From positions 62,001-126,000 of the forward strand of contig JAPOYJ010000011.1 in the NCBI GenBank assembly GCA_026706635.1: DNA of 64,000 bases, written 5' to 3'. This document shows, one piece after another, positions 1-14,747 of this stretch. The notes beneath the pieces are model-generated. The model had not been told where the DNA came from. It worked only from the letters and a program-made list of their open reading frames with translations, and ran no database searches. Every line of letters starts with the position of its first letter. Position 1 is the stretch's first letter. The position numbers and the translations under genes are program-made. Source of the stretch: Gemmatimonadota bacterium (GTDB taxonomy: Bacteria > Gemmatimonadota > Gemmatimonadetes > Longimicrobiales > Gaopeijiaceae).

Positions 1-756
1 GGGTATTTTCTCGGCGTGCTGAAACGGTCGGTCTGGAATGCATGTCGCGGGTTGCGGTGGATTCTGACTGAGATTGAGATGCCCGATGGCCTTGCGGGGA
101 AGCTATATGGACAAGCGACGGGTTTGATCGACTGCGGGATTCCAGCGTACGGTGTCCTTCCGGGTATAAGCAATGTATGCGAGAATCTGCGCGAGGACGT
201 TGCGTTAGTTTTGTCAACCGGATTGGCATCCGAGAGTCGGAAGATGGGCGGGAGCGCGATGTGGTCATTACATTGCTGGATGCAAGTCGCTTCCGACCCG
301 GCGATGGCATTTGTGGCTCCCCCGGAGCACCTGGTAAGGGAGATCGGGGTTGCCGTCGCCACCAGGCGGCGATCGGTCTTGGGACAAGCACTCTGCGCGG
401 CGAAGTGGGTATTCGAAAGCGGTAGCAAGGACATGCGAGATGCGGTCCGCGATCTGGTGCTGAAGGGCTTGGGCTACCTAGCCGAAGGGTTGCGGTACGA
501 TCGCGAGGATCCACTCGATGAGAAACTTGATGTTCCGCTCGCACGATGGCGTAGCATCCAAGTGGCGCGCGCGATGGCTGGGCAGGGTCTGGGCGGGCAT
601 CCCGTGGTCAAGCGGTGGTTGCAGTTGGGAATGGATGACCCGCTACCGGAAGTACGACATGTCGCGAACAGGTGGCGGGAGGGTGAGGGGATGGTGGACG
701 CGGGCGAGAGCGATGGACGAGGCGAGTTCGCGGATGAGGGTGCGGCCGATGCCTAG
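1..756 (+). CDS. C-terminal part of a protein of unknown function, truncated by the window edge
   Basis: The reading frame is open from base 1, so this is the C-terminal ~250 residues of a longer protein. A GTG at 16 could serve as a start, but nothing upstream marks it as one. The sequence is helical, with alternating short hydrophobic and charged stretches; its end (PLPEVRHVANRW) looks like a HEAT/ARM-type helix, only a weak resemblance. I recognise no catalytic motif. The stop codon overlaps the ATG of the following AlbA_2 gene by 8 bases, so the two are translationally coupled and probably one operon. Given the BREX genes downstream, a defence role is likely but not shown. Confidence 0.55.
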   Translation, partial: GYFLGVLKRSVWNACRGLRWILTEIEMPDGLAGKLYGQATGLIDCGIPAYGVLPGISNVCENLREDVALVLSTGLASESRKMGGSAMWSLHCWMQVASDPAMAFVAPPEHLVREIGVAVATRRRSVLGQALCAAKWVFESGSKDMRDAVRDLVLKGLGYLAEGLRYDREDPLDEKLDVPLARWRSIQVARAMAGQGLGGHPVVKRWLQLGMDDPLPEVRHVANRWREGEGMVDAGESDGRGEFADEGAADA

Positions 757-2476
757 AACCCACACCGATGTTGAAGGACTTCTGGATCGGCTCGACGAGC
801 TTTCCGCCCACGACCTCGAGTCCCAAACCCTCGACTTCAAGGAATGGGATCTTCACAGCCTGAACCAGTCGACCCGAACCGTCGTGAGCTCCGCCGTCTG
901 CATGGCCAACGGCGGCGGGGGAACGGTGGTCTTCGGCGTTGCCGACAAGCTGGTGGGCCGCGAATGCGCGATCCTCGGCGTCCCGCCGGAAGTCTCGGTG
1001 AACCGGCTCCGGGCCGCCGTCTACGACTCGACCGACCCGAAGCTGACCCCCGTCTTCCAGGAACTGCACGTCCCCGAGGGCACCGGCCGGCTGATTCTCA
1101 TGCATGTCCACCCCGGAATGCCTCCCTACACGGACACTGCCGGCCGCGGCACGATTCGCATCGGAACGGACTGCAAGCCTCTGACGGGCACTCTGCGGAG
1201 AAGGCTTCTGGAGGAGACCGAGGATCATGACTTCTCGACGGGCACGGTGGACGCGCCGATTCGGCGGCTCATTTCGCCCGTGGCGATGGAGTCGCTGCGC
1301 GATGCGGCCACCGCAGAGCGCGCCCCGCGGGAACTGCTCCGGTTGGGCGACGAGGATCTCCTGCGGGCGATCGGCGTGATCCGGGACAGCGTCGCCACGC
1401 GCGCCATGGTGATCGTCGCGGGTTCGCCGCACGCCATCCGGGAGCACGTTCCGAACTACGTGTGGACTCACGCCCGGATGTCCTCCGAGACGGACTACTC
1501 CGACCGAGTCGACGGCACGGACGCCGTTACCGTGGCCCTCGGCAGGATCCTCGACCGAATCATGGCCGACAATCCCATCGAGACCGTGCGGAGAGAGCCG
1601 TACCACTTCGAATACCGGACCTATCCCGAGGTCGCTCTCCGGGAAGCGCTGCTCAACGCCCTCTGCCACGGTGACTTCCGGGTCGCCGGGCCACGGCTGG
1701 TCAAGCAGTACCCGGACCGCATCGAGATCTCTAATCCCGGGGGCCTTGTGGGGGATCTGACCCCGGAGAACATCCTCCATCATCCCCCGGCCGCGCGCAA
1801 CCGGTGCCTCGTGGACGCGCTCGGCAGGCTGCGCCTCATCAACCGGATGAACCTCGGAATGGAGAGGATCTACTCATCGCTTCTCATGGAGGGTAAGCCG
1901 CCACCCGAAATCGAGGACATGGGAGACGCGGTGAGGCTGACGTTCCGCGCCTCGAAGCTGTCCGCGGCGTTCCGGGGATTCGTTGGCGAACAGGCGAGGA
2001 AGGGGATCGCTCTGACCGCCGACCACATGCTCGTCCTGCGGCACCTGCTGCGCCGGCCGGCGATCAGACCGGCGACGGCGGCTCGTCTCTGCCAGCGGCG
2101 ACTGGGCGAGGCGCGGGACGCGCTGGTCGAGATGGAAGGCGCCTTCGGCCTGCTCGAACGCGGTGCCAACGGCCGCGAGGAGCACTGGACGCTGGTGCCG
2201 GAGGTCAGGGCCGCGCTCACCAGAGTGAGGGAGCCGGACGATCGAATGCGAAGCTGGCGTGAGATCAAGGACGAGGTGCTACGGGAGATGCGGGCCCGCG
2301 CGGTGCGAGGGGAGGAGCCGCTGGCCAACGCCGTCGTGAGGCGGATGACTCGTCTCGACCGCCAGCAGGTCAATCGCCTGATTCACGAACTTGTGGAAGA
2401 GGGCGGCGTCCGAATCGACGGCCATGGCCGCGGCGCGCGATACGTGTACGTGGGTTCGCCGGTGGGAGGGGAGTGA
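749..2476 (+). CDS. AlbA_2 / HATPase_c_4 putative regulator (Schlafen/RecG-C-like), first of three paralogues
   Basis: 575-residue protein. Residues ~25-150 form an AlbA_2 (Schlafen-type, formerly AAA_4) nucleic-acid-binding domain, with the hallmark TLDFKEWD and a glycine-rich GGGGTVVFGV strand. A HATPase_c_4 (RecG C-terminal-like) domain follows at ~285-420, with REALLNALCHGDF as the ATP-binding N box. The last ~150 residues contain two winged-helix-like stretches, the second around DRQQVNRLIHELVEEGGV. I place the start at 749 because it overlaps the upstream stop and the protein then begins just before the domain; a longer in-frame extension to 518 is out of frame with the preceding gene and lacks domain support. 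Such proteins are usually annotated as ATP-binding transcriptional regulators and recur as BREX accessories. Confidence 0.82.
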   Translation: MPRTHTDVEGLLDRLDELSAHDLESQTLDFKEWDLHSLNQSTRTVVSSAVCMANGGGGTVVFGVADKLVGRECAILGVPPEVSVNRLRAAVYDSTDPKLTPVFQELHVPEGTGRLILMHVHPGMPPYTDTAGRGTIRIGTDCKPLTGTLRRRLLEETEDHDFSTGTVDAPIRRLISPVAMESLRDAATAERAPRELLRLGDEDLLRAIGVIRDSVATRAMVIVAGSPHAIREHVPNYVWTHARMSSETDYSDRVDGTDAVTVALGRILDRIMADNPIETVRREPYHFEYRTYPEVALREALLNALCHGDFRVAGPRLVKQYPDRIEISNPGGLVGDLTPENILHHPPAARNRCLVDALGRLRLINRMNLGMERIYSSLLMEGKPPPEIEDMGDAVRLTFRASKLSAAFRGFVGEQARKGIALTADHMLVLRHLLRRPAIRPATAARLCQRRLGEARDALVEMEGAFGLLERGANGREEHWTLVPEVRAALTRVREPDDRMRSWREIKDEVLREMRARAVRGEEPLANAVVRRMTRLDRQQVNRLIHELVEEGGVRIDGHGRGARYVYVGSPVGGE

Positions 2477-2862
2477 CCGAAATGTATCCGCCATACATTT
2501 TCCGATACATTTCTCCGCGAAATGTATCAAGAAATGTCTTTCAGACACATTTCCGGGCGAAATGTATCGCATCTTCCGCTTTAGAAGCGCGGCCGGAATG
2601 CGATTCTCCGAGATTCCCAGATACATTTCTCCCCGCGAAATGCGAACGAAATGCGCGAATCGCCATTCGACTCGCATTTCTCCCGCGCTCCATTGCTGGG
2701 AATGGGTCTCCGCGTCCGTTCCTGTCGCATTTCCGCCTCCGGTCTCCGAGAAACGGGTCGAAGAGCGTCGTTCCGGTCGTCTTCCGACGCGTTCCCCGCA
2801 CTCCGGGCACGGATGGCGCACCGACAGCGCCCCCCAGTCCCCGCTGAAGGAGGATCCGAAGA
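2477..2862. promoter_or_regulatory. Gene-free spacer with a palindrome array (GAAATGTATC / GATACATTTC)
   Basis: This 386-base gap inside the operon holds no convincing gene. GAAATGTATC occurs at 2479, 2519 and 2559, and its complement GATACATTTC at 2504 and 2620: five exact 10-mers in 151 bases. They form dyads: 2480-2487 with 2493-2500 (5-base spacer), 2504-2513 with 2519-2528 (perfect, 5-base spacer), and an imperfect one at 2531-2553, with centres ~26 bases apart. Degenerate GAAATGCG/CGCATTTC copies continue to ~2690. It could be an operator array for a dimeric regulator, perhaps one of the flanking AlbA_2 proteins, or a set of RNA hairpins. Function is inferred only. Confidence 0.6.
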
Positions 2863-4044
2863 ATGGACCTGAACGAGTTTCGCGAGAGAATCCGAGCCGG
2901 CGAGAGCGAGCGGCTGGAGTTCAAGCGGGAGGCGCGCGACCTGCGGGCGGTTGGCCGGGCCGTCTGCGCCTTCGCCAACTCGTCCGGCGGCACGGTCGTC
3001 CTCGGCGTGGACGACCGGGGCGGAATCGTGGGCGTGGACGAGGATCTGGACGGGCTGCAGGAACGCCTGAGCAGCTTTCTCCACACCGGACTGAGTTCCC
3101 CGGTTTCGGCCAGATGCGGCTGTCTGGAGACTCCCGCCGGCTGGGTGCACTGGATCAGGGTCCCCCACCAGCAGCGGGGGTTCGAGCCCATGCGCCACAG
3201 GGGCCGCTACTGGGTGCGCTGCGGCCGGAGCAGCGTCGAGCCTTCGCCCTCCGGGCTGGAGGAGCTCCTCCATGTCTTCGGGTTCGTGATGACCGAGGAC
3301 CAGGTGATTCCGTCGGCGGAGGAGCATCACATCGACCTCGCCGTGTTCATTGCCCACCTCCGGGCCATGGGGTTCAAGCCCGACAAGGGGCCGCAGCCGT
3401 CCATGACCGACGACCTTCGCAATCGCGGCGTGACCTCGGAACTGGACGGAGTCATGCGTCCGACCCTCTACGGCCTGTTGGCGTTCGGCAAGCATCCGCA
3501 GCAATACCCTCAGATGGGGAACTTCGTCGTGCGTTGCGCCGCCTACCTCGGCGACCACCAGGGATCCGAGGTCATTTCGGCCAGCGAGAGCCGGGGACGC
3601 CTGGAGGAGCAGGTAAATCGCGCGCTGGAGTGGGTCCGATCCTTCGGCTGGCGCGAGGAATACCGGGGTCTCTACCGCCGCAACGTGCCGTTGGTCCCCG
3701 AGGACGCCCTCCGCGAGGCGCTGGTGAACGCGGTCGTGCACCGGGACTACTCGATCACCGGCTCGCCGGTATCGCTGGACGTGCTGCGAGACCGGGTGCT
3801 GGTGACCAGTCCGGGAGCTCTTCCGAATCACATGACCGTGGAGAGCGTTCGCGCGGGCGGTCGGCCCCGGTCCCGCAACGAGCTCATGGTCAACGCGATG
3901 GTCGTGGCCAGGTTGATGGAGAAGCGCGGAAGGGGGTGGCTGCTGATGAGTGAGGCGATGGCGGAGTTCGATCTGCCCGAGCCGGGGATCGAGAACGATC
4001 CCCCGGGACGCACCGTGCGGGTGACGCTGAGGCGCGTACCATGA
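2863..4044 (+). CDS. AlbA_2 / HATPase_c_4 putative regulator, second paralogue (short form)
   Basis: 393 residues. The AlbA_2 domain spans ~1-130 (LEFKREARDL, then SSGGTVVLGVDD) and the HATPase_c_4 domain ~230-390, with REALVNAVVHRDYS as the N box. It ends directly after the ATPase domain and lacks the winged-helix tail seen in its two neighbours, so it is a short form. A strong Shine-Dalgarno AAGGAGG (2847-2853) lies 9 bases before the ATG, fitting independent initiation after the palindrome-rich spacer. Its last codons overlap the next gene by 4 bases (ATGA), so those two are coupled. It probably works with the adjacent paralogues; the substrate or operator is unknown. Confidence 0.82.
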   Translation: MDLNEFRERIRAGESERLEFKREARDLRAVGRAVCAFANSSGGTVVLGVDDRGGIVGVDEDLDGLQERLSSFLHTGLSSPVSARCGCLETPAGWVHWIRVPHQQRGFEPMRHRGRYWVRCGRSSVEPSPSGLEELLHVFGFVMTEDQVIPSAEEHHIDLAVFIAHLRAMGFKPDKGPQPSMTDDLRNRGVTSELDGVMRPTLYGLLAFGKHPQQYPQMGNFVVRCAAYLGDHQGSEVISASESRGRLEEQVNRALEWVRSFGWREEYRGLYRRNVPLVPEDALREALVNAVVHRDYSITGSPVSLDVLRDRVLVTSPGALPNHMTVESVRAGGRPRSRNELMVNAMVVARLMEKRGRGWLLMSEAMAEFDLPEPGIENDPPGRTVRVTLRRVP

Positions 4045-5723
4045 CACCCCTCCTCTCTCCCGCCGAGCTCCAGACCATCCTGTCCCGCGGCGAAAGCCAG
4101 TTCGTCGAGTTCAAGTCCGCGTGGGACCGCACCACCGTACCGCGCAAACCCCTCGCGCGCCGCACCCTGCGCGACAAGATCGCCGACGCCGTCGCCGCCT
4201 TCGCGAACGCCGACGGTGGCCTTCTGCTGGTCGGAGTCGACGACGACGGGGCCGCCACCGGCCACGGCTATCCGGACCATGTCGTGGACGACCTCTTCGC
4301 GGTCCCCCGCCGCAGGCTGACCCCGGCCGTCGCTTGCCGCACCGAACGGATTGCCGTCGACTGCCACGAGGTCCTCGTGTTCCAGGTCCCCATCGCCCCC
4401 GAAGCCGTCATGATCGACGGCAACGGCTTCCCGTATCGGGTCGGCGCCCGGATCATCCGGGAGCCGCAGGAGATCATCAACCAGCGGAAGCAGGCGTATC
4501 GGCGCGTCGGATACGAGCCGCGTTTCCGGCCGGAGGCCAAGGTTGACGATCTGGACCTGGCGCTGGCCGAATCGTTTCTGAAGGACACGCCCGTCGGGGA
4601 CCGTCCCGTCATCGAGGCCCTCGACTACTACGGCCTCATCGAGATGGACGCCCGCGATTGGCGAGTGACCAACGCGGCCCTCCTGCTCTTCGCCCGCCGC
4701 CCGGCGCTTCGCTGGCATCCTCGTGCAGGGCTGCGGGTTTTCCGGGTGGCAGGAACGGAGATCAGGTACGGACGCCGCCGGAACGTGACGCAGATCGGGC
4801 GGGCCGACCCTCCGCTGGCCTTGGCCGTCCACGAGATAGTGGAGCTGGCGCGGCACCAGGTGCGCAGGTCCGAGAAACTGGTCGGTCTCCACTTCGAGGA
4901 CATCACCGAGTACCCCCACTTCGCGTGGCAGGAATCGTTGGTCAACGCCATTGCCCACCGCGACTACGAAGTGCAGGGCCGCGAAACCGAAATCTGGTTC
5001 TTCGAGGACCGGCTCGAAGTGTCCAGCCCGGGAGAGCTCCTTCCGCCCGTCACCGTGGACACGCTGCGAGAGGGCCACAGGGCTCATGTGACCCGCAATC
5101 CGATGCTGGTCCGGGTTCTCGCCGACACGGAGATCATGCGGGACGAGGGGGAGGGGATCGTGCGGGTGTTCCGGGAGATGGAGGACAGCTTCCTCGGCGA
5201 ACCGGAGTTGACCTCCGCGAACGGCCTGTTCACGATCACGCTTCTCAACGAGCCCGACTGGGAGGCGCACGGACCGGGGTGGAGGCACTTCGTCGACGGG
5301 CTTCGCGTCGCGGACGATCAGAAGAGGATGCTGCTCCTGCGGCCGTACGGGTTCACCCAGGCCGACTACGAACGGCTGAACACGGTGACGCCCGAGGAGG
5401 CGGCTCGGCGGATCGCGGATCTGGTAAGCGGAGAACTCGTGATCGGCCTTCCCGCTCCAGAGGATGTGGGGCCGACGTTCGTGGTGCGGCCGGACAAGGA
5501 GAAGATGGGCCTCTTCCTGAACGACCGGATCCTGAAGCTCCGGGAGCACTTCCAGAAGCAGCCCTGGCTCAAGAATGCCGACTATCGCGAGGTCTTTGAC
5601 GTTGACCGGCGAAAGGCGACCAGGGAGCTCCGCCAGCTCGCGGAGGTCTTCGGTCTGCTGCGGATGGAAGGGACCCGCCGGGGTGCCCACTACCGCCCAA
5701 CGTCCGCGCTCGGAGCGAGCTAA
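4041..5723 (+). CDS. AlbA_2 / HATPase_c_4 putative regulator, third paralogue
   Basis: 560 residues. The N-terminal AlbA_2 domain (~10-135) starts with QFVEFKSAWD and contains GGLLLVGVDDDG. The HATPase_c_4 domain (~265-400) carries WQESLVNAIAHRDYE and the G-box-like RDEGEGIVRVF. A winged-helix-like tail (~485-555) contains NADYREVFDVDRRKATREL. The start overlaps the previous stop by 4 bases. It diverges clearly in sequence from the two preceding paralogues, so the trio is not a recent duplication. It ends 264 bases before the pglZ start, in a gap rich in ATGACC half-sites. It is probably an accessory or regulator of the BREX locus; the family assignment is firm, the role is inference. Confidence 0.82.
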   Translation: MTPLLSPAELQTILSRGESQFVEFKSAWDRTTVPRKPLARRTLRDKIADAVAAFANADGGLLLVGVDDDGAATGHGYPDHVVDDLFAVPRRRLTPAVACRTERIAVDCHEVLVFQVPIAPEAVMIDGNGFPYRVGARIIREPQEIINQRKQAYRRVGYEPRFRPEAKVDDLDLALAESFLKDTPVGDRPVIEALDYYGLIEMDARDWRVTNAALLLFARRPALRWHPRAGLRVFRVAGTEIRYGRRRNVTQIGRADPPLALAVHEIVELARHQVRRSEKLVGLHFEDITEYPHFAWQESLVNAIAHRDYEVQGRETEIWFFEDRLEVSSPGELLPPVTVDTLREGHRAHVTRNPMLVRVLADTEIMRDEGEGIVRVFREMEDSFLGEPELTSANGLFTITLLNEPDWEAHGPGWRHFVDGLRVADDQKRMLLLRPYGFTQADYERLNTVTPEEAARRIADLVSGELVIGLPAPEDVGPTFVVRPDKEKMGLFLNDRILKLREHFQKQPWLKNADYREVFDVDRRKATRELRQLAEVFGLLRMEGTRRGAHYRPTSALGAS

Positions 5724-5966
5724 TGAGCGTGCAGGGATCAGGTATGACCGTCGGTCATGTAAATCGTAACGTGTTGCAGTACAGTCTTTTACCGAAGATA
5801 TGAACTTCAGCATCGTGAATATGACCACTGGCGTGGCCGCGTTTTCGGTTGCCATCCGGTGGAATCAGCGTCGCGCGGCTCCACCGGCTATGACCACCAC
5901 TCACCGAGTTATGACCACCCGCCACGATCACCACAACCTGTTGTCGACAAATCTCTTACGAGACAT
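5724..5966. promoter_or_regulatory. Spacer before pglZ with repeated ATGACC half-sites
   Basis: No gene is supported here. ATGACC occurs at 5744, 5821, 5890 and 5911, and its complement GGTCAT at 5753. The first pair forms the perfect dyad ATGACCGTCGGTCAT (5744-5758). Three of the copies continue as ATGACCAC. The composition is more AT-rich than the flanks. Direct plus inverted copies ahead of pglZ suggest an operator region for a promoter serving pglZ and brxL. Confidence 0.4.
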
Positions 5967-5987
5967 ATGCCCCCGAGGTCCGCACTT

Positions 5988-8333
5988 ATGACGGAACACG
6001 GCACCCAGGGCTCCCCCCCCACCCCCCTCGACCACCTCGCCCGCTCCCTGCGCGCCCGCGCCTCGGTCCCGAGCGGCCAGGCCGCCCCTGCCGCCATCCT
6101 GTGGACCGACCCCGGAGCCGAATGGCGCGGACTCCTCCCTGAAGCGCTCATCCGCATCCCCGAGCTGCTCGTCCTCGGCGACTACAGTCTGGACGACCGC
6201 ACCGGCCCTGCCATCTGGCTTCGCTGCGTGGTCGACGGCACGATCCCAGCTCCCGGGCTCCCCGCCGACGCCATCCCGATCCTCTACCTCCCCGGAGTCG
6301 AACGTGGCGAGCTGCGCGCCGGCGAGGACTGCCACGACCGGCTCAAGCCACTCGTCGAGCTCATGTATCGCGGCGTCCTCTGGCACAACCCCAAGGGCCG
6401 CGACTGGACGGTCACTGCGTTCCTGACCTCATCCGGCGGCCCGGATCTAGACATCGCCCCCGACCGGGGAACGGCCGCTGCGCTGCGCGCTGCGCTTGAT
6501 CGCGTCGCAACGACTCCTGTCGCACAGCTGCGCGGCCGCCGCCTCGATGCCGCCGACTTCAACCGCATGGCTGGCGTCGATGTGTTCCGCGATGTCCTGC
6601 GCTGGATGGGCGACCCCGGGCGCATGCGATCCGGGCCGGGCGAGAACCGCTGGAACGCCTTCCGCGCGGAGTGCCGGAGCGATCTCCGGTTCGACCCCGA
6701 GACGGAGGCGGACGTGTCGGCCGGAGCCATGCTCGGCGAGGCGTCGGGCCCCTGGGCCAAGGTGTGGGCCCGGTTCGCCGAAGCGCCGGATGCCTTTCCG
6801 GGAGTCCCCGAGTTGCTCGCGCGAAGCCGGCCCGCCGGTGAGCTTCCCCTCGACCGTGATCGCTGGCCCGACCTCAACGACGAGGACGAGGAGGTGGTGC
6901 GGAGCGCGCTGGCCGGTCTTCTGGGCATGTCCCACGCCGATGCGTCGCGGGCCGTCGCACGGCTGGAGGAAGACCACGGCCACCGTCGGCGGTCGGTCTG
7001 GGCTCGCCTGGGACGGTCTCCGCTCGCCGAAGTGCTTAAGCCGCTGGCCCGGCTGGCCGGGATCGCCGACAAGGCGATCGGTGGGGCAAGCCCGGACGAT
7101 GCGGCCGAAGTCTATGCCGAGCGCGGATGGCTCGCCGACGCGGGTGCCCGAGAGGCTCTGTCCCTGGCGCCCGCCGAGCACGAGGAGACGGTCGCCGCCG
7201 CCGTGCGGCACCTGCTCGAGCCCTGGCTGGACGACTCCGCCCGCGCCTTCCAGTCCGCGGTGGATCGCCAGCCGCTCCCGTCGGCCGGTGACCAGTCGGC
7301 GGTCACGGCCAGCGAAGACGAATGCATCCTTTTCGTTGACGGCCTCCGCTACGAGCTTGGACAATCACTGGCCGAACGGCTGGAGGCGCGCGGATGCCGT
7401 ACGGAGACCGGCCGCCGTTGGGCCGCGATCCCTACGGTAACCGGCACCGCCAAGCCCGCCGTAACGCCGGTAGCGCGCGATGTCGCCGGCGACCGGCTCG
7501 GTGCCGACTTCCGTCCCGCCATGCGGGGCTCCGGCCGACCCGCCCTGGCCGGGGACCTTCGCAAGGCGATGGAAGGGCGGGGCTATCAGATTCTCGGTTC
7601 GGGCACCCTGGATATTCCGCTGAACGCCGGTGCGCGCGGCTGGCTGGAGACCGGTGAGATCGACAAGCACGGTCACCACCACCGTGCGGCGTCGTTTGCC
7701 CGCCAGGTCGAAGAGGAGCTGGACCGGCTGGCCGGCCGGATCACCGGGCTGCTGAAGGCCGGATGGAGTTCGGTCCGCGTGGTGACCGACCACGGGTGGC
7801 TGCTGCTTCCCGGCGGCCTGCCTCTGGTCGCCCTGCCCAAACACCTCACCGAGTCCAAGTGGGCGCGGTGCGCCGTCGTCTCCGCTGGCTCCACACCGGA
7901 CGCGCCTCTTCATCCCTGGCACTGGAACCCGCGGGAGTGGTTCGCCTCTCCGCCCGGGATCGCCTGCTTCAGCCGGACGCCGGAGTACGCGCACGGCGGC
8001 CTCAGCATCCAGGAATGCCTGATCCCGGACATTCGTGTCGAAGGGACGGCTGGCGGCGGCGCGACCGCGAAGATCCTATCCGTCTCCTGGGTCCGGTTCC
8101 GTTGCAAGGTCGTCGTCGAGGCCCGGGGCGGCCCCGTCACGGCCGATCTGCGTCTCGGCGGTCCGGCGGGCGATTCGGTTGCGTCCTCGCCCAAAGCCAT
8201 CGACGACGACGGACTTGCCAGCCTGGTCCTTGCTGGCGACGAACATGAGGGCGCGGACCTAGTCGTCGTGGTTCTGGGTGCCGACGGCCGCGTCCTCGCC
8301 CAACAACCTACCCGCACCGGAGAGAACACATGA
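5988..8333 (+). CDS. pglZ: BREX system alkaline-phosphatase-like protein PglZ (type B)
   Basis: About 781 residues. The N-terminal region matches the PglZ type B pattern: a conserved ILW-D-W block, LGDYSLDDRTGPAIWLRCV, then ILYLPGV. The phosphatase-like core holds ILFVDGLRYELG (~450) and VVTDHGWLLLPGG (~600), the metal-site-like aspartates of the PglZ fold. PglZ is a core component of every BREX system, acting with PglX and BrxC in host methylation and phage exclusion. I chose the ATG at 5988; the in-frame ATG at 5967 is a reasonable alternative, and the extension to 5859 is a translated low-complexity leader. brxL follows with a 4-base overlap, the typical BREX type 1 order. Confidence 0.9.
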   Translation: MTEHGTQGSPPTPLDHLARSLRARASVPSGQAAPAAILWTDPGAEWRGLLPEALIRIPELLVLGDYSLDDRTGPAIWLRCVVDGTIPAPGLPADAIPILYLPGVERGELRAGEDCHDRLKPLVELMYRGVLWHNPKGRDWTVTAFLTSSGGPDLDIAPDRGTAAALRAALDRVATTPVAQLRGRRLDAADFNRMAGVDVFRDVLRWMGDPGRMRSGPGENRWNAFRAECRSDLRFDPETEADVSAGAMLGEASGPWAKVWARFAEAPDAFPGVPELLARSRPAGELPLDRDRWPDLNDEDEEVVRSALAGLLGMSHADASRAVARLEEDHGHRRRSVWARLGRSPLAEVLKPLARLAGIADKAIGGASPDDAAEVYAERGWLADAGAREALSLAPAEHEETVAAAVRHLLEPWLDDSARAFQSAVDRQPLPSAGDQSAVTASEDECILFVDGLRYELGQSLAERLEARGCRTETGRRWAAIPTVTGTAKPAVTPVARDVAGDRLGADFRPAMRGSGRPALAGDLRKAMEGRGYQILGSGTLDIPLNAGARGWLETGEIDKHGHHHRAASFARQVEEELDRLAGRITGLLKAGWSSVRVVTDHGWLLLPGGLPLVALPKHLTESKWARCAVVSAGSTPDAPLHPWHWNPREWFASPPGIACFSRTPEYAHGGLSIQECLIPDIRVEGTAGGGATAKILSVSWVRFRCKVVVEARGGPVTADLRLGGPAGDSVASSPKAIDDDGLASLVLAGDEHEGADLVVVVLGADGRVLAQQPTRTGENT

Positions 8334-10393
8334 GCGCACCCGAGTTCCAGATGGACGCCCTGGACCGCACCGCCAACGAGGCCTTCCCCGGCTACCTGGT
8401 GCGGAAGGACCTGGTGCGGCGCTACGCGCGCCAGTACCCCGTCCCCACCTACGTCGTCGAGTTCCTGCTGGGGCGGTACTGCGCAAGCGTCGACCAGGAG
8501 GAGATCGACGAAGGCCTGGAGATCGTGAAGAAGCAGCTCGAAGGGCGCACGGTCCGCGCCGCCGAGCGGGAGATCTTCAAGATGAGGGCGCGCGAGGAGG
8601 GCTCGGTCCGCCTCATCGACATCCTGCGTGCCCGCCTGGATGCGAAGAACGACTGCTACCTCGCCGAACTCCCCAGCCTCAGCCTCCGGGACATCCGCAT
8701 CGAGAGCGGGTTCGTCACCGACCACCAGCGGATGCTCGCCGACGGGCTCTACGCCGAGGTGACACTGGAGTACGACCCGGTGATCGCCCAGGAAAAACAG
8801 GGACGCCCGTTCAGCGTCGCGGCGATGCGCCCCATCCAGATGTCGAGCCCGTCGGTCCTCAGGGTGCTGGCCAAGGGACGGCGCCGCTTCGACATTGCGG
8901 GTTGGACCGCCTTCCTCCTCCGTTCGACCGGCCTGGAGCCATCCGCGTTGGATGAACGGGCCAAGCGCGTCGCACTCCTGCGCCTGATCCCCTTCGTCGA
9001 GCGCAACTACAACCTCGTCGAACTCGGTCCCCGCGGGACGGGCAAGAGCCACGTCTACCAGCAGCTCTCCCCGCACTCCCACCTGCTCTCGGGGGGCAAG
9101 GCCACCGTCGCGAAGATGTTCGTCAACATGGCCAACGGGCAGCGCGGCCTGGTCTGCCAGTACGACGTGGTGTGCTTCGACGAGGTCGCCGGCATCTCGT
9201 TCGACCAGAAGGACGGCGTCAACATCATGAAGGGCTACATGGCGTCGGGCGAGTTCAGCCGGGGCAAGGAGAGCATCCGCGCGGAGGGGTCGCTGGTCTT
9301 GGTCGGCAACTTCGACGTTTCGGTGGAGCAGCAGCAGCGCATCGGCCACCTGCTGAGCCCGTTGCCGAAGCAGATGCGGGACGACACGGCCTTCCACGAC
9401 CGGATCCACGGCTACGCCCCCGGCTGGGACTTCCCCAAGCTGAACCCCAACGAGCACCTCACCGACCACTTCGGCCTCGTCAACGACTTCCTGAGCGCGT
9501 GCTGGACCAAGCTGCGGGACACGACGCGTCTGCCGCTCCTGCAGAATCGGGTGTTCTGGGGCGGCGCGCTCTCCGGACGGGACATCGAGGCGGTCCACAA
9601 GACGGTCTCCGGGCTCATCAAGCTGCTGTTCCCGGATGGCGGGATCGAGGTGGACGACGAGGATCTGGAGTGGATGGTGCGACTGGCTCTGGAGTCGCGG
9701 CGGCGCGTGAAGGAGCAGCAGAAGCGGTGTCTCAAGGCCGAGTTCCGGAGCACCCACTTCTCGTACACGCTCGGTGTGGACGGCACGGAGCAGTTCGTGG
9801 CGACGCCCGAGCTTCGCAGCGACGAGGCGATCGACAGCGACCCGCTGCCTCCCGGGCAGGTGTGGGCGATCGGGCCGGGTGTCGAGAGTACCGGGCCGGG
9901 GCTCTACCGGATCGAGGTGGTGGTGGGACCTGGGGCGGGGGGAGCGAAGATCCTGAACCAGCCGGTGCCGCCGGCGTTTCGGGAAAGTGTCCGGGTGGGG
10001 GAGCAGAATCTGTACACGGGAGGGAAGGCGTTGGTGGGGGACCGCGACGCGCGGGCGCACCAGTACACGGTTCAGATGCAGCCGCGGGACAACGACAAAT
10101 CGGGGACTGGGCTGGGGCTGCCGGTCTTGGCGGCGATGGTGGGAGGGTTGCTGGACCGGAAAACGCGCGGGGCCACGATCATCGTGGGGCCGCTGAACCT
10201 CGGGGGATCGCTGGAACAGATCGCGGACCCTGTGGCGATGGCGGAGCTCGCGGTGGACAAGCAGGCGACCGTTCTGCTGATGCCGGTGGGCGCGCGGAGG
10301 GAGCTGATGAAACTCGACGACGATGTGTGGACGAAGGTGAATATCGAGTTCTACCGGGACCCGCAGGACGGGGTGTTCAAGGTGTTGGAATGA
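8330..10393 (+). CDS. brxL: BREX system Lon-like AAA+ protein BrxL
   Basis: 687 residues, the normal BrxL length. An N-terminal domain (~1-200) precedes an AAA+ module with Walker A GPRGTGKS (~233) and Walker B VVCFDEVAG (~280). A C-terminal Lon-protease-like domain (~540-687) contains NDKSGTGLGLPVLAAM at the place of the Lon catalytic serine region. BrxL is a hexameric DNA-binding AAA+ factor required for exclusion in type 1 BREX and is the usual last gene of the operon. It starts on the pglZ stop (ATGA overlap) with GGAGAGA upstream. A new promoter begins ~20 bases after its stop, so the BREX operon probably ends here. Confidence 0.92.
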   Translation: MSAPEFQMDALDRTANEAFPGYLVRKDLVRRYARQYPVPTYVVEFLLGRYCASVDQEEIDEGLEIVKKQLEGRTVRAAEREIFKMRAREEGSVRLIDILRARLDAKNDCYLAELPSLSLRDIRIESGFVTDHQRMLADGLYAEVTLEYDPVIAQEKQGRPFSVAAMRPIQMSSPSVLRVLAKGRRRFDIAGWTAFLLRSTGLEPSALDERAKRVALLRLIPFVERNYNLVELGPRGTGKSHVYQQLSPHSHLLSGGKATVAKMFVNMANGQRGLVCQYDVVCFDEVAGISFDQKDGVNIMKGYMASGEFSRGKESIRAEGSLVLVGNFDVSVEQQQRIGHLLSPLPKQMRDDTAFHDRIHGYAPGWDFPKLNPNEHLTDHFGLVNDFLSACWTKLRDTTRLPLLQNRVFWGGALSGRDIEAVHKTVSGLIKLLFPDGGIEVDDEDLEWMVRLALESRRRVKEQQKRCLKAEFRSTHFSYTLGVDGTEQFVATPELRSDEAIDSDPLPPGQVWAIGPGVESTGPGLYRIEVVVGPGAGGAKILNQPVPPAFRESVRVGEQNLYTGGKALVGDRDARAHQYTVQMQPRDNDKSGTGLGLPVLAAMVGGLLDRKTRGATIIVGPLNLGGSLEQIADPVAMAELAVDKQATVLLMPVGARRELMKLDDDVWTKVNIEFYRDPQDGVFKVLE

Positions 10394-11111: not shown

Positions 11112-11235
11112 TATCGCACCGCAGCTCTCCGACGCCGAGAGCAGCAGTGCGCCGAAACAACTTGGTCAGGGCCTCTTCGATGTCCCTGTCCGCAACGAGC
11201 GCGACAAGCTTGTCAGGTCCAGCTTCGTGCCTCAC
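11104..11235 (-). pseudogene. N-terminal stub of an ATPase-partner gene (DUF4276-like), truncated
   Basis: A GTG overlapping the stop of the upstream ATPase (GTGA) opens a 43-residue frame: a start segment, then DKLVALVADRDIEEALTKLF and RRTAALGV. This resembles the first strand and helix of the DUF4276-type partners encoded after AAA_21 ATPases in predicted defence modules; those are usually ~200 residues. Here the frame stops after 43 codons, at the 3' end of the convergent small gene, so the rest appears deleted. The stub may still be translated. The family call rests on a short stretch plus context. Confidence 0.45.
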
Positions 11236-12497
11236 CCAACCACGCCCTTGGCGAAGAGCACGTCCATATTGATCGATCCATGCCAATCCGCGAGCATCGG
11301 ATGCTCGTTTCCCCGAATTATGTCCGTCGCGCCCTCCAGATCCTTCTCGAAGCACAGTACCTCGCGTGGATCCACCAACGCGAGGAGCGTCTGCGAATGC
11401 GTGGCCACGAGCACCTGGGCATCATACGCCGACGACAGCGAATCGCGGATTCCGTCCACCGCCAGCGGGTGGACCCCGTTCTCCGGCTCTTCGAGCAGAT
11501 AGACTTCACGGTTGTCGGGCAGATACGCGAGTACGGTCAACGCCAGGAGCCGCATGGTCCCGTCCGACGCCATCCAGGACGGCACGTCCACACCGGTATC
11601 GTACCGCAGTCGCAAGTACGCATGCCGGTCCTCCGGCCGGTCGATTACGTCAATGCCCCGAAGATCCGCGAGTACAGTCCGGACATGGCCGAGCCATTCC
11701 TCGAAGTCGGCTGGGTGCTCATCCTGGAGCCGCTTGATGACCCATGGCAGGTTGGAACCGTCGATTGCGAATCCGTTTCTACCGTATTCAGGGGGACTCG
11801 CTCCGCGCATCTTGACGCTGTCAAGGAAGACCGGCTTCACACCGTTCTCCAGCTTTCGCTTCACGAGAGTGGCCATCGGGAACTTCTCGGGGGACTCGGG
11901 CAGGTTACCTAACGTGGAGCGGTGGGGGCCGAAGGCGATGGTTGTCACCCATCCCTTCCCCGCTTTGCTCTCGGTCTCGACGCTGAACGCGTCCGTTCCC
12001 TTGGCCGATTTACTGAGTACAGACCTGTTTCCGTGCTTCCCCCCGCCCACGAGTATCGTGGAGGGAGGCGCTGGCGGAAAGGGGAACCTCCGCTGGACCA
12101 TTCGCCGGCGCTTGCGCGCGGGCATCAGCAGCCCTCGCTCCGACGCGATACGCATTCCCCGTTCATCTTCGCTGATCCTTACCTCATAGCGAAAGACTCG
12201 AAAGCCCTTCTCGGCTGGCAGTCGCTTCCGCAGCTCCTCCGGCACCTCCAACTCGATCGCCAACTCGAAGCGCAGGTCCTGCTCGGGCCGCCCCCAGACC
12301 AGATCCTGGAAATTCGCGGTACGGCTCCCGACTGCCCTCTCCAGCCCGTCCCGAACCAAGTCACCTAGGAAGGCGATGGCGTCGAAAAGGGTGCTCTTAC
12401 CGCTGGCTTTGGGGCCGATCAACACGTGGAATCTGTCGAGCGAGACATCTACATACCGCAGACAACGGTAGTTGAGTGCCTGGATCCGACAGATCAT
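11232..12497 (-). CDS. AAA_21 / RecF-SMC-like ATPase, likely defence-related
   Basis: 421 residues from the ATG at 12497, which has AGAGGAT just upstream; an extension to 12542 is possible. The N-terminus (ALNYRCLRYVDVSLDRFHVLIGPKASGKST) carries Walker A at ~30-37. An ABC-like signature region contains MASDGTMRLLALTVLAYL, Walker B is YLLEEPENGVHP (~333) and the H-loop VATHS (~366). This is the head-only RecF/OLD-type ATPase used by many anti-phage systems together with a toprim or nuclease partner. The next gene, in GTGA coupling, is such a partner but truncated. Whether the ATPase acts alone or the system is dead is open. Confidence 0.8.
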   Translation of the reverse strand: MICRIQALNYRCLRYVDVSLDRFHVLIGPKASGKSTLFDAIAFLGDLVRDGLERAVGSRTANFQDLVWGRPEQDLRFELAIELEVPEELRKRLPAEKGFRVFRYEVRISEDERGMRIASERGLLMPARKRRRMVQRRFPFPPAPPSTILVGGGKHGNRSVLSKSAKGTDAFSVETESKAGKGWVTTIAFGPHRSTLGNLPESPEKFPMATLVKRKLENGVKPVFLDSVKMRGASPPEYGRNGFAIDGSNLPWVIKRLQDEHPADFEEWLGHVRTVLADLRGIDVIDRPEDRHAYLRLRYDTGVDVPSWMASDGTMRLLALTVLAYLPDNREVYLLEEPENGVHPLAVDGIRDSLSSAYDAQVLVATHSQTLLALVDPREVLCFEKDLEGATDIIRGNEHPMLADWHGSINMDVLFAKGVVG

Positions 12498-12649
12498 GAG
12501 GATCCTCTCGCCTTGGGACGCGGTTGCGATGCGGGGACTCAAGCATTCCCCATCCCTCCCCGACTGTCAACCGCGACCGCCGAGACGCTGTAGCGATGAG
12601 CGACCGACCCGCGCTTGACAGGTAAGATCGACATAGCCATTATAGCCAG

Positions 12650-12949
12650 ATGAAAAAGGCTAGCGTCAGCGAGGCGAAGAACGGGCTCAGCGGACTGCTG
12701 AGCGAGGTTCGGCGTGGGGAGTCGGTGCTGATCACGCACCGCGGGCGGCCCGTTGCGCGGATCGAACCGTGCCGGGTTCCCGGCCCGGACGCCGAGGACG
12801 CCATTTCCGAGCTCCTGCAGCGGGGCGTCGCGGCCCCGCCTCGCGCGCCACTTGATGTCGAGCGCTTCCTGGGTGTCCCCGCCGCCCGGCTGACCGGGGG
12901 AGTCAGCGCTAGCGAGATCGTCGTGACCGAGCGCAGCGGGCACCGTTGA
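12650..12949 (+). CDS. Phd/YefM-type antitoxin
   Basis: 99 residues. The N-terminus is the classic Phd fold: MKKASVSEAKNGLSGLL, then RRGESVLITHRGRPVARIEP, which binds operator DNA and keeps the toxin in check. Upstream is a short AT-rich stretch with ATAGCCATTATAGCC, a plausible autoregulated promoter/operator. The stop overlaps the toxin start by 4 bases (TTGA), the standard arrangement for co-translated toxin-antitoxin genes. Confidence 0.85.
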   Translation: MKKASVSEAKNGLSGLLSEVRRGESVLITHRGRPVARIEPCRVPGPDAEDAISELLQRGVAAPPRAPLDVERFLGVPAARLTGGVSASEIVVTERSGHR

Positions 12950-13365
12950 AGTACTGGGACTCGTCGGCTCTGGTGGCCCTCGTCGTGGACGAGCCGCGAA
13001 GCGCCGAGCGCCGGGCGAGGATCCGCCGGGATCCGGTGATTGTGACGTGGTGGGGCAGCCGGATCGAATGCGCATCGGCACTGAACCGCCTGGAACGTGA
13101 TCATCGCTTCGAGGATGACGGGCTCGACCGTTCGATGGGCCAGCTCGGGATGCTGGCTGCGAGTTGGCTCGAGATCGAGCCCCTGGAGCAGGTGCGCAGG
13201 CGCGCGATCAGGCTGCTTCGGCTTCATCCGCTCCGCGCGGCGGACGCGTTGCAGCTGGCGGCGGCGCTCACCGCTTCGGACGAGGACCCCCAGCGGCTGG
13301 ATCTGGTCAGCAGCAATGATCGTCTTTCGGCCGCGGCGCGCCGCGAGGGGTTCAGGGTTCTGTGA
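12946..13365 (+). CDS. PIN-domain toxin, VapC-like
   Basis: 139 residues from a TTG that overlaps the antitoxin stop. Four acidic PIN positions are visible: YWDSSALVAL (first Asp), IECASALNRLE (Glu), RAADALQLAAAL (Asp) and SSNDRLSAAA (Asp). PIN toxins are Mg-dependent RNases that cut tRNA or rRNA when the antitoxin is degraded. All expected acidic residues are present, so it looks intact. Its place between the BREX locus and the ArdC fusion gene fits a defence or mobile island. Confidence 0.85.
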   Translation: MKYWDSSALVALVVDEPRSAERRARIRRDPVIVTWWGSRIECASALNRLERDHRFEDDGLDRSMGQLGMLAASWLEIEPLEQVRRRAIRLLRLHPLRAADALQLAAALTASDEDPQRLDLVSSNDRLSAAARREGFRVL

Positions 13366-13478
13366 GTTGCGCGGCGACCGGTCGGGTGCGGCGGTGATGG
13401 TGGTTGGGGGCGGAGGTAGCCGCTGACGCGACGACATGTATCGGCGATGAAGAGGAGGAGACTTCGGGTGGTGAGGCT

Positions 13479-14747
13479 GTGAGCGCCCGACCGGTAAACC
13501 CGGACTTCTTCAAGGACCTCACCGCCCGGATCCTTGCGGCCCTCGAGGAAGGCGTGGTCCCCTGGCGACGGCGGTGGCGTTCGTTGACGCCGACCCGGTA
13601 CGTCGGACTCCCCTTCACGGGAACCAACAATCTCGTGCTCTCCCTCGCGGCTGACGTCAAGGGCCACCGGAATCCGTTCTGGCTGACGAAGGCCCAGGGA
13701 CGCCGTTGCGGCGCAAAGGTCCTGGACGGCGAGAAAGGCACGCGGGTGCTGCGGCCGCTCCCGTTCCCGGTCCCGGATCGTGCCTTCCCGCTCATGGAAT
13801 CCTACGAGGTGTTCAACGGCGAGCAGTTCGACCGGCTGCCGCCCAGGTTCCGGGTCGATATAAAGAGTCCCGCTCCCGGTCCGCGAGGCAGGATCGACAT
13901 CGCCGAAGACTTCTTCGCGCCGGTCGGCGCGGAAATCGTGCCGGGCGGCGACCGCGCGGTATACAATCGCAGCAGGGGCGTGCGGGAGCTTGCGGAGCGG
14001 CCTCTGGACGATCGCGCCTGGATCGTGGTCTACCTCGACATCGTCGACATCGGGCCGCATCCGCTGGTCGGGGCTGTCGGAGTGGACACCGGGGGAACCA
14101 AGCGCGTGCTGGGGCTGCGCCACGCCGGAGGCGACGCCGCCGACCGGGCGGCGGCCGCCGAGGAGCTGCTGCGGGACGTGGTGAACCGGGGCGTCCGCCC
14201 GGACCGGCGACGCCTCGTAGTGACCGACGGATCCACGCAGCTGAGGGACGCGGCGGTCGCGGTGTTCGGCCCGGACACGTACGTGCAGGCCTGCCGGCTA
14301 CACCGCGAGCGCGAGGTCCTGTCGCAGGTGCGCGAGAAGGAGGATCGCGACAAGGCCAGGAAGGCGCTCCGCGAGGCATGGGTGGGGGGGGCCGGGGTTG
14401 GACCGCGGCGCCTGAAGGAACTGGCGGAACGGATTGAGCGAGCCGGATGGGAGGAAGCCACGACCCGGCTCCGTGCCGGATCCGGCGACCTCTTCACCGT
14501 GGACCGATTTGGACTCGACTCCGGGCTGGCCGGGAGCCTCGTCACGACGGGCGTGATCGACAGCGCGAGCTCGGGACTGCGGCGGCAGATCTGCGGCGTG
14601 CCGAGCTGGGGCGACGGCGAGGGGGCGCTCGCGTGGGCGGCCGCGTCCTTCCTCGAGACCGAGCGCGGGTTCCTGAAGGTCCGAGGCCACCGGCGCCTTC
14701 AGCATCTCAAGGACCACCTGGACCAGATCGAGATGCCGTTCGGCTAG
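13479..14747 (+). CDS. Fusion of ArdC antirestriction N-domain with a Mutator/IS256 transposase core
   Basis: About 422 residues from GTG 13479; the frame stays open to a TTG at 13404. Residues ~7-170 match the ArdC N-terminal ssDNA-binding region: DFFKDLTARILAALEEGVVPW, NPFWLTKAQGRR, GEKGTRVLRP, YEVFNGEQFDRLP and the later AEDFFAPVGAEI. Where ArdC continues into its HExxH metalloprotease domain, the sequence switches at ~177 to a Mutator-family DDE core: VYLDIVDIG (first Asp), LVVTDGSTQLRDA (second Asp, ~249), CRLHRERE, and GVIDSAS where the family has (N)PIES, so the third acid is Asp (~361). It ends FLETERGFLKVRGHRRL. The transposase's own N-terminal DNA-binding region is missing. No terminal repeats seen. 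Domain matches are from memory. Confidence 0.72.
   Translation: MSARPVNPDFFKDLTARILAALEEGVVPWRRRWRSLTPTRYVGLPFTGTNNLVLSLAADVKGHRNPFWLTKAQGRRCGAKVLDGEKGTRVLRPLPFPVPDRAFPLMESYEVFNGEQFDRLPPRFRVDIKSPAPGPRGRIDIAEDFFAPVGAEIVPGGDRAVYNRSRGVRELAERPLDDRAWIVVYLDIVDIGPHPLVGAVGVDTGGTKRVLGLRHAGGDAADRAAAAEELLRDVVNRGVRPDRRRLVVTDGSTQLRDAAVAVFGPDTYVQACRLHREREVLSQVREKEDRDKARKALREAWVGGAGVGPRRLKELAERIERAGWEEATTRLRAGSGDLFTVDRFGLDSGLAGSLVTTGVIDSASSGLRRQICGVPSWGDGEGALAWAAASFLETERGFLKVRGHRRLQHLKDHLDQIEMPFG

Follow-up and report, generated by a model that had tools for sequence, protein, structure and literature searches.

Three stacked Schlafen genes and candidate operator arrays inside a type 1 BREX locus of a Gemmatimonadota bacterium

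The closest described relatives of the locus analysed here are the type 1 BREX systems with Schlafen-histidine kinase-wHTH accessories (Rakesh and Krishnan, PMC12839542), whose published catalogue covers at least 1017 taxa and treats Schlafen-HATPase-wHTH genes near BREX as backup RNase effectors. Our locus shares with these systems the domain order of the accessories, their position inside the BREX core and the proposed backup RNase role, but differs in that it stacks three lineages, has operator-like arrays and possibly a means of controlling pglZ-brxL; the words "operator" and "promoter" are absent from the main text of that paper. Similarly, the PrrC anticodon nuclease inside EcoprrI is a tRNA-cutting backup within a DNA-modification defence locus (PMC12707154), although PrrC belongs to a nuclease family other than Schlafen and has no array. 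RptR, from a type I R-M defence island, is also similar, as a repressor encoded inside the island that binds a short series of direct repeats, but it is a small dedicated repressor of its own promoter with no Schlafen or HATPase part reported (PMC12255303). Finally, the BrxR/CapW regulators are likewise DNA-binding regulators (a role that is predicted here) of a BREX locus, but they are WYL proteins that act ahead of the whole locus, whereas here Schlafen-HATPase proteins would act ahead of internal units. No WYL match was found among the open reading frames scanned, which covered the region upstream of brxA non-exhaustively. To our knowledge, BREX regulation beyond BrxR is poorly understood.

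The window, by which we mean the whole stretch of 64,000 nucleotides that was analysed (C81:62001-126000), comes from a draft genome of 2.8 Mb in 86 contigs whose nearest named relatives are Gemmatimonadota MAGs, some of them probably of sponge or coral origin, judging by their record titles. An earlier note on this DNA had placed a BREX locus at 749-10393, and these coordinates are exact. The BREX assignment holds because the contig to the left carries brxA, brxB, brxC and pglX; the note had named the absence of brxC and pglX upstream as evidence against BREX, and both are present. Reading rightwards, the contig order is brxA, brxB, brxC, a PD-T4-4-like ATPase gene, a PDC-M38-like ATPase gene with a DUF3226 gene, a ThsB-type TIR gene with an 8xMP membrane gene, pglX, a DSR2-like gene, slfn1-slfn2-slfn3, pglZ and brxL, so that the type 1 core order brxA, brxB, brxC, pglX, pglZ, brxL is present in full. 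PADLOC identified BrxA (4e-88), BrxC (E=0), PglX (E=0), PglZ (5.9e-256, PDLC02566) and BrxL (1.5e-275, PDLC02506), and brxB was assigned from its position and its matches to relatives. The locus is thus confirmed as a complete type 1 BREX, and cargo occupies two slots in it, brxC-pglX and pglX-pglZ. The features of the second slot and of the genes that follow it are, in window coordinates:

1-756, plus strand: 3' end of the DSR2-like SIR2 gene (PADLOC Dsr2, E 3e-144; Pfam SIR2_2, 4e-19; NCBIfam Dsr2)
749-2476, plus strand: slfn1, 575 aa, SLFN/AlbA_2, HATPase_c_4 and two tandem wHTH domains (Pfam, AF2 model)
2479-2733, no strand assigned: array 1, GAAATG half-sites in palindromic and tandem arrangement, with 11 exact copies and about 16 AATG sites
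2863-4044, plus strand: slfn2, 393 aa, SLFN/AlbA_2 and HATPase_c_4 without a wHTH tail (Pfam)
4041-5723, plus strand: slfn3, 560 aa, SLFN/AlbA_2, HATPase_c_4 and two tandem wHTH domains (Pfam, AF2 model)
5743-5990, plus strand: array 3, direct repeats (TATG-ACC) whose paired copies are spaced by 21 bp
5988-8333, plus strand: pglZ, open frame from 5859, likely start 5988 (PADLOC PDLC02566, E 5.9e-256)
8330-10393, plus strand: brxL, overlapping pglZ by 4 bp (PADLOC PDLC02506, E 1.5e-275; Pfam BrxL_ATPase and BrxL_N)

The gene upstream of slfn1 encodes 1300 aa (L003:854-4756), and its likely start, an ATG at L003:902, overlaps the pglX stop. We call it DSR2-like only, because its NCBIfam Dsr2 score of 495 bits falls under the 1400-bit equivalog cut-off, though the alignment spans 23-1227. 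The genes pglX, the DSR2-like gene and slfn1 are translationally coupled, and slfn2-slfn3 and pglZ-brxL form two more overlapping pairs. The overlapping or close junctions described earlier exist at DSR2-like/slfn1 (7-8 bp), slfn2/slfn3 (4 bp) and pglZ/brxL (4 bp), but not between slfn1 and slfn2 or between slfn3 and pglZ, where non-coding gaps of 386 bp and about 264 bp, respectively, intervene. The toxin-like cargo of the locus other than the Schlafen genes consists of DSR2-like, TIR and OLD-like genes. The TIR and 8xMP genes between brxC and pglX are a recurrent two-gene cargo in BREX loci of several phyla (L002:12128-13170, L037:790-1706, L095:3984-4900 and the start of L026). Just past the BREX locus lies an OLD/HEC-01A-like ATPase gene (window 11232-12542, minus strand; protein start M-I-C/R-RIQALNYRC), and the right edge of the defence region is marked by a Phd/YefM-PIN toxin-antitoxin pair followed by an apparent transposase gene (window 12650-13365, 13404-14747).

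All three slfn genes are intact and lie between the DSR2-like gene and pglZ, and Pfam confirms the three AlbA_2-HATPase genes that the earlier note had described before pglZ, with PF04326 SLFN_AlbA_2 (E 3.5e-15 to 7.4e-19) and PF13749 HATPase_c_4 (E 9e-18 to 4.7e-21) in each. The genome contains six AlbA_2 genes, three of them at this locus. Alignment with SLFN11/13/14 shows that the acidic triad of the Schlafen nuclease core (ES-xxx-EFK ... VDD) is kept in all three products, as E24/D29/D66 in slfn1, E14/E19/D51 in slfn2 and E18/E23/D68 in slfn3, the second position of slfn1 being a conservative change from E to D. RNase activity of the three Schlafens is plausible. The AF2 models of slfn1 and slfn3 (mean pLDDT 83.8 and 78.5) contain a Schlafen domain, a GHKL-like region and two C-terminal tandem winged helices, the latter absent from slfn2, which stops after the HATPase. 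In fold, both models match DIP2311 of Corynebacterium diphtheriae best over their full length (PDB 3lmm; E 1.7e-29 for slfn1 and 6.8e-25 for slfn3), an uncharacterised protein that is not known to belong to a BREX system; further matches were to SLFN11/13 for slfn1 and to SLFN12/13/14 for slfn3, and both models gave weak MarR-type matches. Putative recognition helices are DRQQV at 537-541 of slfn1 and residues 523-536 of slfn3 (DRRKATREL).

Whether the three genes form a unit was assessed in 17 class-level genomes with the PglZ family of the window and in 79 loci from 84,980 species genomes. Among the 65 complete pglX-pglZ intervals, 40 have no Schlafen gene, 19 have one, four have two (one of these, L036, being a split gene) and two have three. 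The idea that BREX often carries one such accessory is borne out by these 19 intervals and by the published catalogue (at least 1017 taxa; PMC12839542), and BREX with Schlafen cargo is ordinary in kind and unusual in number here. The two intervals with three genes are that of the window and that of a congener, G169 (L010/L043); the full trio with the DSR2-like gene occurs in the same order in these two species of the genus (L003, L043). The co-inheritance of the trio that the note had proposed to look for thus extends, in our sample, to one further genome. An independent stack of three, interleaved with TrlF, was found in a Thermoanaerobaculia genome (L129). In a tree of 55 genes, slfn1, slfn2 and slfn3 fall into three well-separated clades with 100/100 support and long stems, in keeping with the earlier view of them as divergent and not recently duplicated; recent tandem duplication is ruled out by the long stems. 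In other species and phyla, the same pglX-pglZ slot holds solo genes from every clade: slfn1 in L028 and L032, slfn2 in L040 and L054, and slfn3 in L026, L027, L053 and L097. Furthermore, L024 carries slfn1 and slfn3 without slfn2. Between the window and G169, identity is 97% for slfn2, 93% for slfn3, 92% for pglZ and within 92-97% for brxL, but just 67% for slfn1 and 84% for the DSR2-like gene, and the window slfn1 is sister to that of G139 in the tree. The contrast between slfn1 and its neighbours indicates that slfn1 was exchanged independently. Because its members occur alone in this slot elsewhere, and because slfn1 was swapped on its own, the trio is stacked cargo: three separate lineages gathered in the pglX-pglZ slot together with the DSR2-like gene.

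The possibility that such genes lie mainly away from BREX was answered differently for the three lineages, in that BREX slots hold most of the close full-length relatives of slfn1 and slfn3, and the relatives of slfn2 are mixed. Plasmids, viral contigs and 159 genomes from another phylum yielded almost no useful further relatives of slfn1 or slfn3. Most genomes of the genus have, away from BREX, a slfn3-like gene with a HATPase and a wHTH-like tail without AlbA_2 (L113:3204-4442, L114:2363-3826, L122:2377-3618), which in two cases adjoins a gene similar to the OLD/HEC-01A-like ATPase gene of the window (L113:1822-3165, L122:988-2313). L110 is a decayed BREX locus, with pglX in pieces and slfn3 split over two frames. 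At L030:5754-9828, a TrlF-family ATPase gene and then a short Schlafen-HATPase gene (about 425 aa) without wHTH lie between pglX and pglZ, and the same layout is suggested by size (2.6-kb spacing) in several other loci, for example L037, L046, L047, L081 and L101. No repeat array followed the short TrlF-linked Schlafens in those tested.

The two gaps between the Schlafen genes and their downstream neighbours come directly after the two wHTH-bearing genes, ahead of slfn2-slfn3 and of pglZ-brxL, and each contains a repeat array. These arrays are thus located at the boundaries of co-translated units, each directly after the gene of its presumed binder. Array 1, with a proximal block GAAATGTATC and a distal block GAAATGCG, contributes 11 exact GAAATG/CATTTC half-sites to its 386-bp gap, against 0.42 expected and a best of 3 in 2000 shuffles. 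Array 3 has pairs at 5799/5820, 5889/5910 and, at the pglZ start, 5966/5987; two pairs lie within the gap, a number reached in 0/2000 shuffles. The array 1 palindrome occurs nowhere else in the genome and the TATG pair of array 3 is likewise unique, so a dispersed repeat is ruled out. Arrays resembling array 1 lie after slfn1 in G169, G123, G139 (a genome without a match in the PglZ family search), L028 and, in another phylum, L032. TATG pairs 21-22 bp apart follow slfn3 in G169, G123, G044, L027 and L053, and were seen in 0/10 control gaps. As the 8-mer repeat test was too insensitive for the 7-bp slfn3 repeats, 6-mer and spacing tests were used. Overall, repeat excess was found in 16/16 gaps after wHTH-bearing Schlafens and in 3/17 controls (Fisher p 8e-7, an optimistic value as the loci are related); weak excess was seen in two gaps after slfn2 and in one between 8xMP and pglX. 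In L057 and L065, two additional lineages with a wHTH, the arrays differ greatly in sequence, and L025 retains remnants of both arrays, yet has no Schlafen gene there. No array accompanies a 41% identical slfn3 relative with wHTH that is flanked by what appear to be the hsdS and hsdM genes of a type I R-M locus (L132, L133, G520), nor the distant slfn1 homologues outside BREX (about 33% identity). A consensus sigma-70 promoter was not found in the arrays or gaps, which says little given that promoters of this phylum are ill-defined. In L039 (2349-2667), pglZ and brxL are separated by an unusually long gap with strongly repetitive sequence. Private operator-like arrays of wHTH-Schlafen genes are apparently undescribed in the open-licence literature searched.

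The sequence of each array can also be compared with the protein encoded beside it. The second helix of the last wHTH starts DR-x-x, and we compared x with the commonest bases after ATG in the array. Where x is H, these are CG (slfn1 of G169, G123 and L028; slfn3 of G123, L027 and L053); where x is not H, they are TA (slfn1 of the window, G139 and L032), AC (slfn3 of the window and G169) or AA (slfn3 of G044 and L097). In L036, where x is not H, the sites are too few and the flavour is merely not CG. The array types include TATGACC, TATGCGCG and TATGAA. Helix and flavour agree in 14/14 genes, and on the best tree each trait changes four times. As a pattern this agreement is strong, but its statistical weight is low, because there are few independent pairs among these related genes (two on well-supported branches, four in all, too few for significance). 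Array 1 of the window is itself mixed: its proximal block is TA-type and its distal block is CG-type, at odds with its own slfn1 helix, and the distal block is perhaps left over from an array like that of G169.

Taken together, this complete type 1 BREX holds in its slot a DSR2-like gene and three Schlafen-HATPase genes; we think it probable that the latter are RNase modules, two of which double as operator-binding regulators. Slfn1 and Slfn3 look like DNA-binding switches because each gene is followed by its own repeat array before the next defence genes, and we infer that they bind these arrays through their C-terminal winged helices. In a chain of two steps, the slfn2-slfn3 unit would then be under the control of Slfn1, and the pglZ-brxL unit under that of Slfn3. 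The default state would be repression of the effector units, lifted on infection, although we are guessing at both the trigger and the direction of this control. The operators could be released, and the Schlafen RNase switched on, by a phage cue that acts via the HATPase region. RNA cleavage with growth arrest would then serve as a backup to BREX restriction, much as PrrC does for EcoprrI. Lacking a wHTH, Slfn2 would serve solely as an effector. Elsewhere among type 1 BREX loci, pglZ has a separate promoter and pglZ-brxL its own transcript (PMC12707154), and in Salmonella growth is slowed by cassettes that drive pglZ-brxL (PMC9009780). For these reasons, a switch before pglZ-brxL makes sense.

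The three genes could instead be independent backup RNase effectors and nothing more, with wHTH domains that serve as phage sensors or oligomerisation parts and repeats of some other origin. We regard this as unlikely, but it agrees with the published treatment of BREX-associated Schlafen-histidine kinase-wHTH genes as backup effectors (PMC12839542), with the lack of a wHTH in slfn2 and with the further toxin-like cargo of the locus, and cleavage of RNA (tRNA or other) on BREX inhibition would fit the kept acidic triad. What it leaves unexplained is the occurrence of repeats in all 16 gaps tested after wHTH-bearing Schlafens, and the tracking of the recognition helix by array flavour. It is improbable that the arrays, as recombination or mobile-repeat sequences, promote the exchange of cargo and are not operators; the slot content is mosaic and the remnants in L025 look as if genes had been deleted between arrays, but the array motifs are unique in the genome, the arrays are both gene-specific and helix-specific, and the slfn3 repeats hold a 21-22 bp helical phase.

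The earlier note had suggested either a multi-component regulator or an added defence layer. In the sense of an obligate three-part complex or regulator, functional just as a trio, the former is disfavoured, with very little chance of being correct: the conserved order with the DSR2-like gene in two species and the 4-bp slfn2/slfn3 overlap speak for it, but the solo and paired genes in the same slot and the independent replacement of slfn1 do not. As a statement about regulation, it gains support from the tandem wHTHs of slfn1 and slfn3 and from the arrays, and "regulator" may be right for two of the three Schlafens. The added defence layer is supported by the acidic residues kept in the Schlafens and by the DSR2-like gene in the same slot. 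As remote as the obligate trio, in our judgement, is a transcribed slfn1 array yielding a structured RNA that restrains the Schlafen RNase, like the repeat RNA of type III toxin-antitoxin systems. Array 1 RNA does fold far better than shuffled sequences (z -4.96), but palindromic operators score likewise, array 3 shows no such structure (z -0.33), no known RNA family (Rfam) matched in the gaps, and the array lies downstream of slfn1, not upstream.

Beyond the probable operator-binding role of Slfn1 and Slfn3, we propose tentatively, and with more doubt than confidence, that the Schlafen-HATPase-wHTH protein is a sensor, an RNase and a repressor at once, which would gate pglZ-brxL via private arrays that co-evolve with its helix, stacking then amounting to a serial lock. 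If an internal cargo Schlafen is both the pglZ-brxL switch and an RNase, sensing, expression control and abortive infection would be joined in one protein. Furthermore, this would explain the frequent position of such genes directly before pglZ.
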